From: a virus
Virus record (IMG/VR): IMGVR_UViG_3300044993_000080
Span: 1-64,000 of that record
Length of the DNA stretch: 64,000 bases
Reading direction: 5' to 3' (one strand)
Under the pieces are notes generated by a model that was not told the DNA's origin, did no database searches, and saw only the letters and a program-made list of their open reading frames with translations. A program made the position numbers and the translations under genes. The first letter of the stretch is position 1; each line of letters opens with the position of its first letter. Below, one piece after another: positions 43,676-60,516 of the stretch.

Positions 43676-43683
43676 GCGGAAAG

Positions 43684-43711
43684 TGGGGCGCTTCTGTTTC
43701 CCGGTGCGCCC
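43684..43711 (-). terminator. GC-rich hairpin after the 43722 gene
   Basis: Seven-bp stem GGGGCGC/GCGCCCC with a 14-nt loop, between the 43722 stop and promoter 43647-43675. The T tract is short. Probable weak terminator. Confidence 0.45.
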
Positions 43712-43721
43712 CGAACCGATG

Positions 43722-44024
43722 TCAAGCGCAGTTAAGCGGCGAGACGAAGTGCAGTTTCCTGCGGGTTGTCGTTGGCATTTCTGCTAACTGTCCCGTCACG
43801 GTGGGCCAATCCGGGTCGCGTCTCTGTGTCCAGTCTGGCTGTCGATCCTGTTTCACCCCCGTCAAGAGCACCGCACCTACCCTCGCTTTCGCGTTTTTGC
43901 GCCCGAAGTAATCGCCCATGCACAGACTTTCCCTACCCGACGAGGTAGCAGCGACGCTCATGGTGGAGGTGGCGGGCACTGCCCCCGCGTCCAGCCGTTC
44001 CTTCGCAGGCCGTATATCGACCAT
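43722..44024 (-). CDS. Hypothetical 100-aa protein, possibly from a leaderless mRNA
   Basis: ATG 44024 lies at the predicted start of the promoter at 44031-44059, so the transcript may be leaderless. An internal ATG at 43921 with GGGAAAG 8 nt upstream could make a 66-aa product instead. Basic and Arg/Thr-rich, with a short Gly/Val/Leu core. No family was recognised. It is the only gene between this promoter and the hairpin. Confidence 0.55.
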   Translation of the reverse strand: MVDIRPAKERLDAGAVPATSTMSVAATSSGRESLCMGDYFGRKNAKARVGAVLLTGVKQDRQPDWTQRRDPDWPTVTGQLAEMPTTTRRKLHFVSPLNCA

Positions 44025-44030
44025 AGACGC

Positions 44031-44059
44031 ACAATAACCTACACCGGATTTGTAGTCAA
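44031..44059 (-). promoter_or_regulatory. Promoter TTGACT-17-TATTGT
   Basis: -35 at 44054-44059 and -10 at 44031-44036, close to consensus. The downstream ATG is about 7 nt past the -10. It is divergent from the plus-strand gene at 44201. Confidence 0.6.
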
Positions 44060-44133
44060 ACCCTGTTTGGCAAGTCCGTGCGCCCCCGCATACGGCGTTC
44101 GTTCCGAACCGGGTCTCGCTGATAGCCCTCGTG

Positions 44134-51403: not shown

Positions 51404-51943
51404 CTATGCCGTCTTCGGGCGTTTGCCGCTCCGGTCAGCCGGAACCCATGCCCGACTGTAGGCGTGATCCGGGATTTCGAGCTTCGTGAATACGCTTTCT
51501 TGCAGGAGCAAGTCGATCTCGCTGCGGTCCGCGCCAAGCTCTTCGCACAACTGCGGGATCGGCACTGCGTGGTCTCGCACTAGGCTCGTGACAAGTTCGT
51601 GCATCCGGGCGGCGACGTGCGATCCCTTAGCGCGATTGATGCGCACGGTCAGCATCTTGCGCTCGGCGTCGGTGATGTCGAGCACGGCGCACGGAACGGC
51701 AGTGCCGAACTTGGCGCGCAAGTCCTCGTCCACCTTGGCGAGTGTCGAACGGTGGAACCCGTCAATGATAAGGTAACGCCCGTTTGCAGTCTCGGCCACT
51801 AGGACCGGCTGTATCCAGCCTTGTTTGAGAAGCGATAGCTTCAGCAGCCGCATTTCCGGGCCAATGACCACATTGGGGTTGTAGTCGTTGGCGTCAAGAA
51901 GATCAACGTCGATCCACTGGATGTTGTCGATAGGGTGGTTCAC
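51404..51943 (-). CDS. ParB/sulfiredoxin-fold protein (IbrB-like)
   Basis: 179 aa from GTG 51943. DGFHR at 61-65 within LIIDGFHRSTLAK is the ParB box II motif, and the N-terminal WIDVDLLDANDYN matches the ParB box I region. A helix-turn-helix seems absent. It lies between the PAPS-reductase-like gene and TerS. IbrB proteins pair with IbrA PP-loop proteins elsewhere, so this may form such a pair with the 52034 gene. Function unproven. Confidence 0.8.
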   Translation of the reverse strand: MNHPIDNIQWIDVDLLDANDYNPNVVIGPEMRLLKLSLLKQGWIQPVLVAETANGRYLIIDGFHRSTLAKVDEDLRAKFGTAVPCAVLDITDAERKMLTVRINRAKGSHVAARMHELVTSLVRDHAVPIPQLCEELGADRSEIDLLLQESVFTKLEIPDHAYSRAWVPADRSGKRPKTA

Positions 51944-51968
51944 TGTCTATCCCTCTGTTCTGCTCCGG

Positions 51969-51982
51969 TGCAACGGGTTGCA
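51969..51982. repeat. 14-bp palindrome, centre GG, upstream of the third ParB gene
   Basis: Perfect copy in the leader of the 51943 gene, downstream of promoter 52009-52037. Confidence 0.72.
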
Positions 51983-52008
51983 AGCCGGGATGCTGCCGAG
52001 ACTGATCT

Positions 52009-52037
52009 TCTTAGCCCGTGCCGGGCGTCCGCGTCAA
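52009..52037 (-). promoter_or_regulatory. Promoter TTGACG-17-CTAAGA
   Basis: -35 at 52032-52037 overlaps the PAPS-reductase-like gene's TGA; -10 at 52009-52014. It may boost the ParB3-TerS-TerL unit. Confidence 0.42.
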
Positions 52038-53254
52038 TTACAGCCCGCGCGTGCAGCGGCCTCAGCCTCAGCTTGCCGCTCGTAGTCGATCATACTCTGG
52101 TCCGGGTTCGAGTGCACTTGGATACCTTTTTGCCAGTCTCCGCTCACCACCTTCTGGAACACGTGCAGGATCGGGTAGCCGAAGCACGCGCCTTTATCGC
52201 TGTATTTTCCCCTGCGCTTGTTGTTATTTTTGCTGATCCACGCCGTCTTGACGGCCTTGATCGCGCGCTCCCGATTTACCGGGTCGTCGATCTCGTCTTC
52301 GATGTAGCGGATAATCCCCTCGAAACTCTTGGGATACCGACTGATGACAGCGAAGCGATCCACGTCCTTCCAGTAGCGCTCGTGGGTAGCGACCTCAGGG
52401 AATACGTCTATGATCTGCTCGAAAAACTTGGGATACATGACCCGCAAGCGCTTCAAGTAGTTGTATGCTTTGTCGTGGAGCGGGGTCGAAACGCGCAGTG
52501 GAGCGCCAGCGAATAACTCCTGCTCGTAAATTCGACAATAACTGATCCCCCGGTCATAGAAGTAGCGGAATACGTCCCGCTCACTCCAGTCGTAAATCAC
52601 CTTGATGAAGTCACTGTCCTTAGCGCCGCCGCTGTCCCCCGCGATGTAATTGTAAGTGTTCTTGATTACGTTCGAGGCCCGGAACCGCATCAGGCTCTCT
52701 TGGGCTCGGATGCCGTTGAATACCCCGATCTTCCCTTTCCACCCCAGCTTCAGGTTGGTAAGCGCCTGCATCTCGTGCTGGTCGAGCGGCAAGTTCTCTG
52801 GGTGAAGCTGGCGGATCGCACAAGAAGGCGGTTCCCGCAGATGCTTGCGGTTTACGTCCCACTGCACGTAGGGCAGGTGCTTACCCATGATGAAATAGTG
52901 CGACTTCATCGGCACGGCGAAGTAATGAAGCCGCCATTTTTCGGGTTCGTCATTGAGCTTCAGCACGAAGTCGATGACCTCTTGCGGGATAAGCTCTTCG
53001 TCGCGGAACACCACGTCAAGCGGCTGGGTCCACCCCATTTCGTCCATCACCTCGCGCACAAGGTGGAGCACGACTAGGCTGTCCTTACCACCCGAATAGG
53101 AGACAGCGCAGCGGTCGTAGATCGTCAGGCAATGCCTGATGCGCTTCTTCGCTTCGGTCAGCACATCGCTGTCGATATAATGGACGCGGTTCTCGGCGAA
53201 AACATGCGGGCGATCTGCGGGGGCGATAGCCCTCTCTGCCTCGTAGGACAGCAT
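52034..53254 (-). CDS. PAPS-reductase-like PP-loop protein (IbrA-like)
   Basis: 406 aa. SGGKDS at 54-59 is the PP-loop. DEELIPQEVIDFVLKL and PPSCAIRQLHPENL follow, and GIRAQESLMR is the ordered third element typical of this family. The C-terminus has DKGACFGYPILHVF..V and a basic end. Family members include PAPS reductases, DndC-like sulfur transferases and IbrA. No CCTxxK pair of true PAPS reductases was seen, so a reductase role is unlikely. It lies between ParB-fold genes. Confidence 0.85.
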   Translation of the reverse strand: MLSYEAERAIAPADRPHVFAENRVHYIDSDVLTEAKKRIRHCLTIYDRCAVSYSGGKDSLVVLHLVREVMDEMGWTQPLDVVFRDEELIPQEVIDFVLKLNDEPEKWRLHYFAVPMKSHYFIMGKHLPYVQWDVNRKHLREPPSCAIRQLHPENLPLDQHEMQALTNLKLGWKGKIGVFNGIRAQESLMRFRASNVIKNTYNYIAGDSGGAKDSDFIKVIYDWSERDVFRYFYDRGISYCRIYEQELFAGAPLRVSTPLHDKAYNYLKRLRVMYPKFFEQIIDVFPEVATHERYWKDVDRFAVISRYPKSFEGIIRYIEDEIDDPVNRERAIKAVKTAWISKNNNKRRGKYSDKGACFGYPILHVFQKVVSGDWQKGIQVHSNPDQSMIDYERQAEAEAAARAGCN

Positions 53255-53255
53255 G

Positions 53256-54008
53256 TCAGGCTGCCTCGACTTCGAGGTTGGCCGGGAAGCCCATGTCCGT
53301 CAGCAGCAATTGCAGGCGCTCGCCGTTCGTGCCCGCCAACGGGTAGCGGGTGCGCAGCACTGACAGCATGTGCGTGAAGCGATTGTAGGACAGGTCCGAA
53401 GCGAAGCGCAGCGACGTGCGGTGCACGGGCGGGATGTAACCGGCCCAAGCCTTGCGGTTCGCCCCGATCCCGTTGTCTTCGATCTTGGCGTCCGCACTGC
53501 CGGGTCCGGCGTCGCGCTCTTGGTATTCGCCGCCGTCCGGCGCGCTCCAGTTGTCCCCTGCAAAGGGCTCGCCCACGTCTCGCATACCGGGCATGAACAA
53601 CACGTCCTCTTCGCTGAAGCCCAGCGATATGTAGTCGCCTGACCCGACATCGAGGCGCTTGAACTCCTCCGCCACTGCGGCCATGTCCATCGGCGTGATC
53701 TGTTGGATTTGGTTGTGGGCGATGGCATAGCCCTTGCGCTCGGCCTCATCAAGCGTGAGCACGATGCAGGGCACGTCCGTCATCCCAAGCTCGGTAGCCG
53801 CGTCGAAACGCCCATGGCCTTCCACGATCATGTAGTGGCCTCGGCGCGACGGGTGGCGCACCACGCCGATAGGGTCGAGAAACCCAAAGCGCCGGATACT
53901 GGCCATGATCTGGTTGATATTGATCTCGTTGTGGGTGTTGACATTTTCGGGGTCAGGGACCAGCCGGTTAAGGGCGATCTGCTGGATGCGATCTTCAGAC
54001 AGTGACAT
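53256..54008 (-). CDS. ParB/sulfiredoxin-fold protein with extended C-terminus
   Basis: 250 aa from ATG 54008 (AAGGAGC site). EGHGR at 63-67 is the box II motif; residues 1-60 fit the box I region, and VPCIVLTLDEAERKGYAIAHNQIQ completes the ParB N-terminal domain to about 120. No obvious ParB helix-turn-helix follows; the rest (about 130-250) is charged and partly disordered. Translated in coupling with the preceding ParB gene. Confidence 0.82.
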   Translation of the reverse strand: MSLSEDRIQQIALNRLVPDPENVNTHNEININQIMASIRRFGFLDPIGVVRHPSRRGHYMIVEGHGRFDAATELGMTDVPCIVLTLDEAERKGYAIAHNQIQQITPMDMAAVAEEFKRLDVGSGDYISLGFSEEDVLFMPGMRDVGEPFAGDNWSAPDGGEYQERDAGPGSADAKIEDNGIGANRKAWAGYIPPVHRTSLRFASDLSYNRFTHMLSVLRTRYPLAGTNGERLQLLLTDMGFPANLEVEAA

Positions 54009-54711
54009 GGGCCTGCTCCTTTTCAATATCGGGATCATCGGTATGGCCTGCCAGATAGTCAAGCGGGATGTCGCCGGGGAAAGCCGCTGCGAGCTCCGCA
54101 TAGAGCACCGGATCGACCTTGGCGATTGCGGCCATCAGGACTTCGCCGCCCATGGACTTTGCTGCGCCCTTGCGCACCTCTTCGGCCATGAAGGCACTGA
54201 ACCGGGCCTTGTCTTCCTTGCTGTCCCACACCACGTCATAAGTCAGTGGTGCGCCATCAGCGGCGGTCGAGCCCTGCTCGGCTCGCTCCTCTGGGTCCCC
54301 AAAGTGAACGAATAGGTTGTCTACGATCTTGTCGCTGAAGCCCATATCCCCGAACGCAATGTCGTGGCCCTCTCCCACCAGCGATTGCAGAGTAGTGAAT
54401 AGAGCACCAAAGTCAAAAGTCGATGTCAGCGCGATCTTGTTGTGCGCGATGCGGTAAAGGTCGAGATCGTCCGCACTGGCGTCGCTTATGACCAGCACGG
54501 GCACGTCCACCAGTTGAAGCCTTTGCGCGGCAAGCCACCTGCCGTGACCTTCGACAATGACCCCTTCGGGCGTGATTGCGATGGGGTCGTTGAAGCCAAA
54601 TCGCGTGATTGACGCGGCGATTGCGGCCACGTCTTCATCATTGTGTTGCTTCGAGTTGGTCTCATAGGGCACGAGTTGATGAACCTCGCGCCGCTCCATT
54701 ATCAGCTTCAT
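53995..54711 (-). CDS. ParB/sulfiredoxin-fold protein
   Basis: 238 aa from ATG 54711 (AGGAGG, 8 nt). EGHGR at 54-58 with LVPYETNSKQHN and DLYRIAHNKIAL form a ParB/Srx domain. The C-terminal 110 residues are Asp/Glu/Ala-rich with DVVWDSKEDKARFSAFM, suggesting a second small domain. It overlaps the next ParB gene by 14 nt. First of the four-gene cluster leading to TerS. Confidence 0.82.
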   Translation of the reverse strand: MKLIMERREVHQLVPYETNSKQHNDEDVAAIAASITRFGFNDPIAITPEGVIVEGHGRWLAAQRLQLVDVPVLVISDASADDLDLYRIAHNKIALTSTFDFGALFTTLQSLVGEGHDIAFGDMGFSDKIVDNLFVHFGDPEERAEQGSTAADGAPLTYDVVWDSKEDKARFSAFMAEEVRKGAAKSMGGEVLMAAIAKVDPVLYAELAAAFPGDIPLDYLAGHTDDPDIEKEQAHVTV

Positions 54712-55218: not shown

Positions 55219-55386
55219 CTAACTCTTGAGCTTGGTGTTATGCTTGGCCTTGAACGCCTCCCCCGCCTTGCAGTAGGCGCACGGCTTCTTCGTGGCGTAT
55301 CCCTTCTGGCCTAGCGAGGCCGCCGCCCGGCCCCAACGCCAGCCCTTGTCGAGACAGTAAGCGCACGAAGCCGTAGGCTTGCTCAT
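55219..55386 (-). CDS. Small zinc-ribbon-like protein
   Basis: 55 aa from ATG 55386, which overlaps the upstream TGA (ATGA). Two CxxC motifs (CAYC at residues about 8 and 36) make a zinc ribbon. The rest is Lys/Gly/Trp-rich. Likely a DNA- or RNA-binding or adaptor protein; no family was named. Confidence 0.72.
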   Translation of the reverse strand: MSKPTASCAYCLDKGWRWGRAAASLGQKGYATKKPCAYCKAGEAFKAKHNTKLKS

Positions 55387-55976
55387 GGCGATACTTGACG
55401 GCGGCGTCCGCGCGGCTGGATCGGCGACAGCGCCGCTTCCGGGGGGCTCGGGAAGCTCCACAGTGCGTGGATGGGCTCTCTCAGGTCTCGGGCCTTGAAC
55501 AGGTCGCGCCCCAGCCCGCACGCCGTGGCATAACTTGCCCAGAGTTCACCGTCCTTGGGGAGCCCGCGCGGATAAATGCGGTCGAAGCCCCAATTCCCCA
55601 GCACCTTGGTTGGGCTCATCACCAACATCGTGAACCACGCACCGTGCTGGTAGTGGTCATAGACGAGATCGAACCATGATCTGGGATCGGTGAAGCGGGC
55701 GTGCAACCGGGCGTGGGTGCGCTTGCTGACAGGATACCAGTCGCCCACGTTGCGGTAGTCTTCGAGATGGGTGAAGATGTAACCACTACCCCTCAAGTCG
55801 TCCGGGCGGCTGAAGCCGGTGATGCTGCATGTGTCCGGACTTCCGCGTTGGCGGCGCAAGATGCGCTGCGGTGGGTTGGTGGCGATGCGCTCTTCCCAAC
55901 TGAAGCCGTTGTAGCGTCGGGACTTGGACAAGAGCTTGCCCGTGGCGAGGAGGTCGTTGATCGTTGCAATAGCCAT
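55383..55976 (-). CDS. HNH-like protein, possibly degenerate
   Basis: 197 aa. CSITGFSRP, FTHLEDYRN and RTHARLHARF are spaced as in some HNH nucleases, but only one CxxC-like element is visible and the metal pairs are incomplete. The C-terminus is Pro/Arg-rich. No clear ribosome site precedes the ATG at 55976. It could be a nuclease or only a structural relative. Confidence 0.55.
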   Translation of the reverse strand: MAIATINDLLATGKLLSKSRRYNGFSWEERIATNPPQRILRRQRGSPDTCSITGFSRPDDLRGSGYIFTHLEDYRNVGDWYPVSKRTHARLHARFTDPRSWFDLVYDHYQHGAWFTMLVMSPTKVLGNWGFDRIYPRGLPKDGELWASYATACGLGRDLFKARDLREPIHALWSFPSPPEAALSPIQPRGRRRQVSP

Positions 55977-56041: not shown

Positions 56042-56740
56042 TTAGTCGGCGGGCACCATCAGCACGGCGTCCTTATGTCGGAACACTTCACGCCATGTCG
56101 GGCCGAGTGCGTAGATTTCCCGGTCCGTGTTATAGATCGGATGTGCGACCCGGTTCTTGTAGGGTCCGTATGCCCGGCCCTGCAATACGAGGTAGCGCAC
56201 CCCGGCCTCACGTGCAGCCTCGCCAAACGCATGACCAGCCGGTTTCCAGATAGCTTCGGAGCGCGCCCACGGGTCTGCGTCCTCTGGGTGCTTCTTCGTA
56301 GCCCCTTCCTTCGCGTAGGTCGTGGCAAAGAGTTCTGACAGGACGCGCCGGGCAAGCCACGTAGTGAACCCCTGCTGCACCCATTCCCGCGCTTGGGCCC
56401 GAAACGCCTCACCCCGAACATCCAGCGGCACTGCGGCCATGGTCACGCCGGGGCACCGGGCGCGAAGGTGCATGTTGAACACCTCCACGCTGGGAGCATC
56501 GAGCTCTAGCCCTAGGCACTTGGTCCACCCCATCTGCACTGCCCGGATTGCCAGCATCCCATGGCAGGCCCCGAAGTCGATTGCGCCCGTGCGATCTGCG
56601 ACGGGTATCTGCGCCATGGCCACCGCCATTTGATCGTGAATAGCTGGAAGTGTGCCATCCGCGAGATAGGCGTCGATGTGCTTGAAATCGGCAAATACAC
56701 TGCCATTGTGCTGCGGCTTCAGGGTCTCTTTAAGGCTCAT
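56042..56740 (-). CDS. Methyltransferase-like protein (class I fold)
   Basis: 232 aa from ATG 56740 (AAGGA upstream); GTG 56776 is an alternative. DFGACHG at 55-61 fits motif I of SAM-dependent methyltransferases, and GLELD at 77-81 fits the acidic motif II residue. The remaining Rossmann strands and VRYLVLQGRA near 185 are consistent. No DPPY/NPPY-type catalytic motif was seen, so the substrate is unknown. Confidence 0.6.
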   Translation of the reverse strand: MSLKETLKPQHNGSVFADFKHIDAYLADGTLPAIHDQMAVAMAQIPVADRTGAIDFGACHGMLAIRAVQMGWTKCLGLELDAPSVEVFNMHLRARCPGVTMAAVPLDVRGEAFRAQAREWVQQGFTTWLARRVLSELFATTYAKEGATKKHPEDADPWARSEAIWKPAGHAFGEAAREAGVRYLVLQGRAYGPYKNRVAHPIYNTDREIYALGPTWREVFRHKDAVLMVPAD

Positions 56741-56812
56741 ACGATTGGCAATCCTTGGGTTCTGCCCTATCGGCACATTGAGTTGGTTTTATGGGTGGCG
56801 TCAGGTCTCTCT

Positions 56813-59079: not shown

Positions 59080-59321
59080 ACCACGATGGCCCGTGCTTCC
59101 TCCCGGCATAGCATCTCGGGCCGGACCGGGCGGTTGGTCTTGTGGGGTAGGAACTCGTAGTCCCAGTCAACCCATACGGCTCCGACGCGTTCGCTGGAAA
59201 GATGCGAGACCCTGCCGTGCCACACGACCCTCTGTCCCCTCCGCTTGGCGAGGATAGAGGTCACTAGACAAGGCTCGACCGTGCGAACGCGCATACCCGG
59301 CTGGAAGTCTTCTCGGTCCAT
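59076..59321 (-). CDS. Small protein, intact paralogue of the 42235 frame-shifted gene
   Basis: 81 aa from ATG 59321 (TGATG). MRVRTVEPCLVTSILAKRRG is followed by VVWHGRVSHLSSERVGAVWV and RPVRPEMLCREEAR; the last two are also found in the copy at 42235. The fold looks like a small beta barrel of the PUA/ASCH or SH3 kind, but none is confirmed. Coupled to the ligase and HNH genes. Confidence 0.7.
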   Translation of the reverse strand: MDREDFQPGMRVRTVEPCLVTSILAKRRGQRVVWHGRVSHLSSERVGAVWVDWDYEFLPHKTNRPVRPEMLCREEARAIVV

Positions 59322-60286
59322 CACATATCCAGTGGTGAGCGAATGTTCTTGAATGAAGGGAAGCGCGGGGCCTTCTGCGCGCCGTGCGGCTTGTGTCTGT
59401 AGGTCAAGATCGCGCTCCCAATGTAGCGGTCCCGGTTCTCCCAGAACTCTTTGCCCATAGCGTGGTCAAATCCCGTCCCGCAGTCGAACTCGACCCCTGT
59501 GAGCCGGTCCCGGCACTTCCACGCGCCTAGCCGCCCCAGAGGCCGCCGTGCGTCAACCGTGGACGCCCGCTCTAGGAACCCCTGCTCGTTGCGCACACCC
59601 TCGTTAGTGTTCTCGAATGCCTCGACCGCTCCGATGATGTCGGCTTCGGAAGTCGCCCACGCAGTGAGCCGCATCAAGCCCTGTTCCTTTACAGTCGAGC
59701 GCCCGAACTTGTAGGGCGCATCCAGCCTGCGGTAAACTAGGCCTTCCAGCCGCTGCTCGACAACCCAACGCCGCTCTACATGATCCACCTGCTCCTGTGA
59801 GCGGCAAACGGTAAACGGCACGATGTCAACCCACTCGGGCACCCGGCGGTCTGCCACCATCGCCTCGATGTGCTTGCGGCGATCCCGAAAGGGCATATCG
59901 CGGTCGATGCCGTTCTCGGGCGTCGGTTGGATGTCGAACAGATACCAGCGCAACTTCGGAGTGTAGGCTACCGTCATCACTGCGCTCGTAGTGCGGTTGC
60001 AAAGCCACTGGCCGCCCGGATCGAATACACCGTCCGTATCGGTGATAAACTCACCGTCGAGCCCGTCGAGATTGAAGCCTGCGTCGTGCGCCATACTGAA
60101 CATGTGGTTGAGATAGCGATTGGGGAACGCCTTCAGGCGGCGGGTGAAGGGCTTCGCGTGGCGGCACAAGCCACGCACTCCGTCCACCTTGCCGGTGACG
60201 CCGATGGGCCACGTGATCTGGCTGGGGTCCGGCGCGGTAGCGGCAAGCATGGGGTGTCCCGGAAACTTATCAGTAGGCGCAGTCAC
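59321..60286 (-). CDS. ATP-dependent DNA ligase
   Basis: 321 aa from GTG 60286 (GAAGGAG site, GTGA overlap). Motif I KVDGVR (33-38) with the AMP-linked Lys33; LDGLDGEF (74-80) as motif III; EGLVYR (181-186) as motif IV; KEQGLMRL near 200 for motif V. An OB-fold C-terminus with CRDRLTGVEFDCGTG follows. It seals nicks with ATP in repair or replication. Confidence 0.88.
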   Translation of the reverse strand: MTAPTDKFPGHPMLAATAPDPSQITWPIGVTGKVDGVRGLCRHAKPFTRRLKAFPNRYLNHMFSMAHDAGFNLDGLDGEFITDTDGVFDPGGQWLCNRTTSAVMTVAYTPKLRWYLFDIQPTPENGIDRDMPFRDRRKHIEAMVADRRVPEWVDIVPFTVCRSQEQVDHVERRWVVEQRLEGLVYRRLDAPYKFGRSTVKEQGLMRLTAWATSEADIIGAVEAFENTNEGVRNEQGFLERASTVDARRPLGRLGAWKCRDRLTGVEFDCGTGFDHAMGKEFWENRDRYIGSAILTYRHKPHGAQKAPRFPSFKNIRSPLDM

Positions 60287-60516
60287 GAGACCTTCTCCTT
60301 CATCTTGGTAGCGAACGCGATCCCGCCAGCTACCCACTGCTCGTGGGCCATGTCGCTGAAGCGCGGGCACATCACGCTCTGTGTTTCAAAAGCCCCGGTA
60401 GGTCCGTCGATGTCATCGAACTCGTAGTAGTGGTAGCCATCACCCCGGTATAGCCTCACCTCCGGGTGCCCTGCCGCCGCGATGGCCTTGGTGACAGTGT
60501 GAACGCCGCGTGCCAT
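60283..60516 (-). CDS. Hypothetical 77-aa protein
   Basis: TGATG-coupled upstream and GTGA-coupled downstream to the ligase. A small mixed alpha/beta protein with VTKAIAAAGHPEVRLYRGDG and YYEFDDIDGPTGAFETQS. No family was recognised. Confidence 0.66.
   Translation of the reverse strand: MARGVHTVTKAIAAAGHPEVRLYRGDGYHYYEFDDIDGPTGAFETQSVMCPRFSDMAHEQWVAGGIAFATKMKEKVS

Follow-up and report, generated by a model that had tools for sequence, protein, structure and literature searches.

The closest described counterparts of the viral locus considered here are phage cassettes for DNA hypermodification on the one hand and bacterial systems with PP-loop enzymes on the other. Deazaguanine cassettes consist of DpdA, QueC/D/E, and FolE, and in the DNA of phage Rosebush, dPreQ0 amounts to about 28% of G, or 96,530 per million nucleotides (PMC6884629). 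A CmoA-dependent cytosine modification of DNA, employing carboxy-S-adenosylmethionine (Cx-SAM) for carboxymethylation and encoded in CmoA/CmoX/CmoY cassettes with ParB neighbours, has been proven in Synechococcus phage S-B43 (PMC12783734). The PP-loop enzymes DndC and BrxP have a PAPS-reductase fold, and a resemblance of prophage PAPS-reductase-like proteins to DndC has been remarked upon (PMC8092301). A PAPS-type PP-loop protein encoded next to an IbrB-type ParB protein is also found in the bacterial pairs IbrA-IbrB and YbdN-YbdM, the ybdN-ybdM operon of E. coli being repressed by CitR (PMC9068703). The locus analyzed here, in which one PAPS-reductase-like PP-loop protein is encoded together with three ParB-fold proteins upstream of the terminase genes, lies in a window of 64,000 bases out of the 84,416-base IMG/VR virus record IMGVR_UViG_3300044993_000080. 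In our literature search, no paper was found that describes such a PAPS-reductase/ParB phage cassette as a system. ParB in modification operons may, reportedly, be mentioned by Iyer et al. in 2013.

It is quite probable, in our judgment, that these four genes constitute a DNA-hypermodification cassette and that they fill a ParB-led slot, located upstream of the terminase genes, in which at least five chemistry modules can take each other's place. They are transcribed from the minus strand in the order ParB1, ParB2, PP-loop protein, and ParB3, followed by the genes for the small (TerS) and large (TerL) terminase subunits, in a nearly gap-free row with spacings of -14, 1, 90, 21, and 1 nucleotides (nt):

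54711-53995, minus strand: ParB1, 238 amino acids (aa), ATG start
54008-53256, minus strand: ParB2, 250 aa, ATG start, overlapping the ParB1 stop by 14 nt
53254-52034, minus strand: PP-loop/PAPS-reductase-type protein (phrog_2302), 406 aa, 1-nt gap after ParB2
51943-51404, minus strand: ParB3 (IbrB/YbdM-type), 179 aa, GTG start, 90-nt gap after the PP-loop gene
51382-50654, minus strand: probable TerS, a neighbour outside the module named by position and homology, 21-nt gap after ParB3
50652-48652, minus strand: TerL, a neighbour, 666 aa, 1-nt gap after TerS

An initial annotation, made from the sequence alone, had described this cluster with its overlapping or adjacent frames before the terminase genes; positions, strand, and order are confirmed, and the Pfam and PHROG domains agree. 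The four-gene cassette is real, and chance is ruled out as an explanation for the arrangement because it recurs in dozens of unrelated phages.

The DNA-modification reading is based on related phages that keep other, partly proven modification cassettes in the same slot. The phages compared have a terminase homologous to the one encoded by Pipefishvirus Jackstina; among them, Ares, BlueHusk, and Jackstina stand in for Rosebush, PG1, and Pipefish, and statements on Rosebush and Pipefish rest on these phages of the same genus. In the slot before the homologous terminase, Rosebushvirus Ares, from the Mycobacterium/Gordonia set, carries DpdA, QueC/D/E, and FolE. Of the phages that share this slot, Rosebush is the only one known to have a modified nucleoside in its virion DNA. 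Nigel possesses a TET/JBP-like protein and a kinase, and LittleMunchkin a TET/JBP-like protein, an amino acid:DNA transferase (1e-27), and a kinase, the TET label resting on weak scores (profile 4e-6, which is the Tet_JBP-like match of Nigel, and 1e-3; PDB 0.04); in the PDB, the slot kinase matched only generic P-loop proteins. Evaa has a ParB-methyltransferase fusion together with a CmoA-like Cx-SAM synthase. Gordonia phage Fresco (locus L016) encodes an ABC-ATPase/GNAT-like protein (603-1808) and a formyltransferase-like protein (1805-2449), a pair which is a candidate for an unstudied modification chemistry. Jackstina and prophi79-1 contain PP-loop and ParB3 genes in this position, and in Pegunavirus BlueHusk the slot holds a kinase only, with neither a ParB nor a PP-loop gene. 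In all but BlueHusk, the first slot gene encodes the same ParB family, whose members from actinophages are mostly 42-60% identical to one another.

Two phages with TerS/TerL homologous to those of the studied phage, Aeromonas phage HJ05 and Pseudomonas phage PA_L9, carry a ParB, a ParB-methyltransferase, and a CmoA-like protein before these genes, the CmoA-like Cx-SAM synthase matches in Evaa, HJ05, and PA_L9 ranging from 7e-35 to 6e-26. The lead ParBs of HJ05 (3e-14) and PA_L9 (3e-16) are relatives of ParB1 in the window, and TerS is homologous to the gene preceding TerL in both (5e-12 and 7e-9, respectively). In the studied phage, TGT/DpdA (PF01702) and Que genes are absent from the 84-kb record, no CmoA-like gene is present in the window or in the rest of the record (L100), and none of the alternative slot cassettes occurs anywhere in the record. 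In contrast to the deazaguanine cassettes, with which it has the lead ParB family in common, its chemistry genes are those for the PP-loop protein and ParB3, and in contrast to the Cx-SAM cassettes, any adenylation would be due to the PP-loop enzyme and not to an asparagine-synthetase-like ligase.

A clear substitution pattern is seen among ParB-led loci in general. With an alignment of the slot lead ParBs as the query, 80 viral loci were retrieved regardless of their partners and classed by local profiles into 28 TET, 15 deazaguanine, 12 PP-loop, 12 methyltransferase/CmoA, and 4 ABC-GNAT/formyltransferase loci, with none recognised in the other 9. Exactly one of the five chemistries is present in 71 of the 80 loci and two are present in none, although 16.9 two-class loci would be expected under independent placement and the minimum in 10,000 permutations was 10, a figure that overstates exclusivity since the 80 loci share ancestry and their flanks are limited. 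ParB3 lies beside the PP-loop gene in 11 of the 12 PP-loop-class loci and occurs once without a PP-loop gene. The studied locus itself consists of a slot-family lead ParB upstream of a single chemistry module and the terminase.

Several points weigh against a DNA-hypermodification cassette. Besides the inflated exclusivity figure and the weak scores behind the TET label, ParB1 and ParB2 of the studied phage share just 25-35% identity with the lead ParBs of the actinophages, the cassette genes of the Rhizobium phages L338C and RHph_I4 are located far from the terminase, and the literature found reports no modified nucleoside for any cassette-bearing phage. In addition, the ybdN-ybdM operon is present in nearly all E. 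coli, without known DNA modification, and the PP-loop and ParB3 pair may therefore act on another substrate.

The PP-loop protein and ParB3 are a tight, co-evolving pair, to which the lead ParB is more loosely attached, because their distance correlation is r=0.906, compared to 0.544 for the PP-loop protein and the lead ParB (62 non-redundant loci; neither value was reached in 2,000 permutations). In enterobacterial genomes, this pair occurs without a lead ParB, and ybdN-ybdM of E. coli is its chromosomal form, covered to at least 80% in 5,373 of 5,426 genomes. The studied PP-loop protein is 29% identical over 242 aa to its Klebsiella counterpart, and ParB3 37% over 169 aa to the Klebsiella YbdM-type protein, but the Klebsiella YbdN-type protein possesses DUF3440 (4e-33), which is absent from the studied PP-loop protein. 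A full IbrA assignment was rejected on this ground, and distant kinship is what is left of the term "IbrA-type" in the initial annotation. Homology to YbdN-YbdM with its CitR-repressed operon (PMC9068703), as well as phage annotations that label cassette genes as IbrA/IbrB co-activators, would be compatible with a regulatory or metabolic pair that, rather than performing DNA chemistry, acts on sulfur/citrate metabolism or on the expression of genes in the host or the phage. Such a role seems improbable to us, as it leaves unexplained both the lead ParB common to deazaguanine and Cx-SAM cassettes and the mutual exclusivity of the chemistries.

A single-sequence query with the PP-loop protein recovered two loci only, and an alignment-based scan was needed, which started from the PP-loop protein without any partner and yielded 80 viral loci; together with locus L006, 81 loci were scored, their open reading frames (ORFs) being searched with local profiles. 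A ParB gene is found within 2 kb downstream of the PP-loop gene in 78 of the 79 viral loci with enough sequence, 56 times touching it or at most 60 nt away, and upstream of it in 70 of the 73 loci with room. ParB-PPloop-ParB is the standard form of the locus, and two upstream ParBs, as in the studied phage, exist in 11 of these 73; the arrangement is more general than initially thought, and the initial view that three ParBs beside one PP-loop enzyme are unusual is not supported. Homologous ParB-PPloop-ParB3 genes of the same cassette are encoded in:

Laroyevirus Salgado, gp5-8
Pipefishvirus Jackstina, gp1-4
prophi79-1, gp92-98
Bacillus 031MP004, gp79-84
Rhizobium RHph_I4, EVC24_113-116, not beside the terminase

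These copies in other phages have one or two lead ParBs and an optional methyltransferase, and their genes are annotated piecemeal. When the first downstream ORF of at least 350 aa was scanned in 55 loci, Terminase_6N (24 loci) and GpA_ATPase (17 loci), treated as mutually exclusive families in this count, were followed by smaller counts of others, from which it follows that the terminase linkage arose with several terminase types. The cassette might therefore be considered a packaging accessory, whose ParBs bind or nick DNA and guide the terminase in concatemer processing or initiation and whose PP-loop enzyme provides energy or regulation, and ParB-fold proteins are cited in PMC12839542 as able to nick DNA. 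However, the Rhizobium phages have the cassette far from the terminase, related phages with homologous TerL carry DNA-modification catalysts instead, the BlueHusk slot does without ParB and PP-loop gene, and PP-loop and ParB3 are a chromosomal pair in bacteria, which makes this explanation slightly less probable still than a regulatory one. Of the initially proposed tie to packaging, terminase proximity is real and recurrent but not universal; the tie is positional only, and since cassette and terminase lie apart in the Rhizobium phages, any direct part in packaging would be conjectural.

With regard to the chemistry, the PP-loop protein matches Pfam PAPS_reduct (E=9e-15) and PHROG PAPS reductase phrog_2302 (E=5e-97). 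SGGKDS, DEELIP, and GIRAxES-type motifs, invariant or nearly so across its close family, are expected of an ATP pyrophosphatase that adenylates its substrate, and its AlphaFold model (confidence score pLDDT 89) has CysH, FAD synthase, and CysD as nearest solved structures. It is a probable ATP pyrophosphatase of the PAPS-reductase type with adenylating activity. No conserved Fe-S or catalytic cysteines are found in the family alignments; a single cysteine is conserved among the close relatives but lost in the wider family, and cysteines at positions 113 and 217, present in part of the family, were dropped as candidates for lack of consistent co-occurrence. Together with the negative search for a cysteine desulfurase (PF00266) in 10 phage records and a score of 18 bits against the curated CysH model, whose cut-off is 154, this favours adenylation without Dnd-type sulfur transfer, the favoured target being a base carbonyl or a small donor. 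DNA phosphorothioation by a DndC-like enzyme, to which PADLOC similarities to DndC (0.0016) and BrxP (2e-8) point weakly, and for which host IscS could stand in for the missing desulfurase, is very improbable on the same evidence; DndC and BrxP have the PAPS-reductase fold in common with the studied protein, which lacks conserved Fe-S cysteines, and neighbour annotations include no DndD or DndE, for which no aimed search was made. Dnd-type phosphorothioation was therefore rejected, and while the initial suggestion of a DNA-modifying system is supported by locus substitution with known modification cassettes, its sulfur/DndC analogy is not.

All three ParBs match Pfam ParB_N (ParB1, E=1e-4; ParB2, E=5e-10; ParB3, E=7e-6), ParB1 scoring under Pfam's own cut-off and ParB3 barely at it. 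The N-terminal ParB fold of ParB1 and ParB3 is confirmed by PHROG matches (ParB1, phrog_620, E=1.6e-34; ParB2, E=1.7e-33; ParB3, phrog_2159, E=1.3e-58), by the AlphaFold model of ParB1 (pLDDT 82), which matches best the CTP-binding ParB 7bm8 (E=7.5e-7), with Noc and KorB also among its nearest structures, and by a profile search of the PDB with ParB3 (ParB match, E=2e-8). ParB1 and ParB2 are paralogues (38% identity across 133 aa), and only ParB3, with its motifs NxxNPN, DGFHR, and NRA(K/R)G, is a separate family. Plasmid-like partition of a phage-plasmid, conceivable from the similarity to CTPase ParB, is of negligible probability and was rejected, as a ParA-type ATPase (PF13614, AAA_31) is absent from the 84-kb record, the cassette ParBs do not reach the cut-off of the curated ParB model, and three ParBs are co-inherited with an enzyme.

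Accessory genes clustering with the PP-loop gene suggest that the product of a hypermodification cassette is tailored further. Two are present in the window:

56042-56776, minus strand: S-adenosylmethionine (SAM) methyltransferase (phrog_11826), an optional accessory homologous to cassette-internal genes elsewhere
55383-55976, minus strand: HxEDY protein, HNH-like, a frequent accessory (family match E=5e-33)

Homologues of the SAM methyltransferase lie inside the cassette in Arthrobacter phage Salgado (gp8, 7e-15) and M. abscessus prophi79-1 (gp98, 4e-8), and the gene is present in 11 of the 81 viral PP-loop loci. The HxEDY family occurs close to the PP-loop gene in 27 loci, including the studied phage, in whose copy the zinc cysteines seem to be lost. 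In 17 loci, the PP-loop gene is followed by a gene for a GNAT protein at a distance of no more than about 0.7 kb, and in 3 loci, a TauD-type 2-oxoglutarate oxygenase is encoded near the PP-loop gene. Twice this oxygenase gene is inserted between the PP-loop gene and ParB3 (L006, 7184-8155; L047, 8113-8778).

For the biochemical steps of such a cassette, we infer the following sequence. ParB1 and ParB2, predicted ParB-type nucleotide-binding proteins, would load on phage DNA and probably supply DNA engagement, giving targeting or access. The PP-loop enzyme would convert ATP to AMP and PPi, adenylating a carbonyl oxygen of a DNA base or a small donor molecule, and ParB3, its constant partner, might present the DNA or complete the transfer. 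In some phages, the product may be tailored by the optional methyltransferase, a GNAT acyltransferase, or a 2-oxoglutarate oxygenase, before the finished DNA would be packaged by the neighbouring terminase, shielded from host nucleases.

The neighbour TerL, which has no match in Pfam or PHROG profile searches, is identified as a terminase by homology, being 43% identical to proteins annotated as such in Rhizobium phages and 44% identical to a protein from Aeromonas phage HJ05, and tblastn relatives are found in 346 phage records, many of them labelled terminase. The gene block of the cassette also contains an ATP-dependent DNA ligase (PF01068, DNA_ligase_OB_2) at 59321-60370 on the minus strand. 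Outside the window, at 71864-74845 of the full record (minus strand; L100 7864-10845), a 993-aa family A DNA polymerase with 3'-5' exonuclease carries an N-terminal uracil-DNA-glycosylase-superfamily domain (PF03167, E=9.5e-6). At 43682-44077 (minus strand), a permuted, two-piece transfer-messenger RNA (tmRNA) of alphaproteobacterial type is encoded (tag ANDNPQETALRLAA; Rfam alpha_tmRNA, 117 bits, E=2.4e-31). In Pseudomonas phage PA_L9, which has a related terminase, ARAGORN predicts a permuted tmRNA downstream of TerL (tag ANDTSFDVRLAA; Rfam 35 bits, below the cut-off), and none was found in the Rhizobium phages, HJ05, JP1, or the contig of locus L006.

More tentatively, and as a possibility rather than a probability, ParB may serve as a general targeting platform with exchangeable catalysts, a single ParB family being combined with at least five unrelated chemistries at one terminase-linked locus, on which PP-loop protein and ParB3 would install an undescribed modification by ATP-dependent adenylation. 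If this is true, YbdN-YbdM of E. coli would be a chromosomal relative of that module with an undescribed nucleic-acid chemistry, so that there would be a working hypothesis for ybdN-ybdM, genes which are very common in this species. Isolated phages with the cassette exist. The slot also raises the question of why ParB is the constant part, for which targeting, nicking, or a CTP-gated clamp may be considered. Phage hypermodifications have mostly been discovered chemistry by chemistry, and a chemistry-swapping slot would provide a search rule, namely to read what follows the lead ParB.

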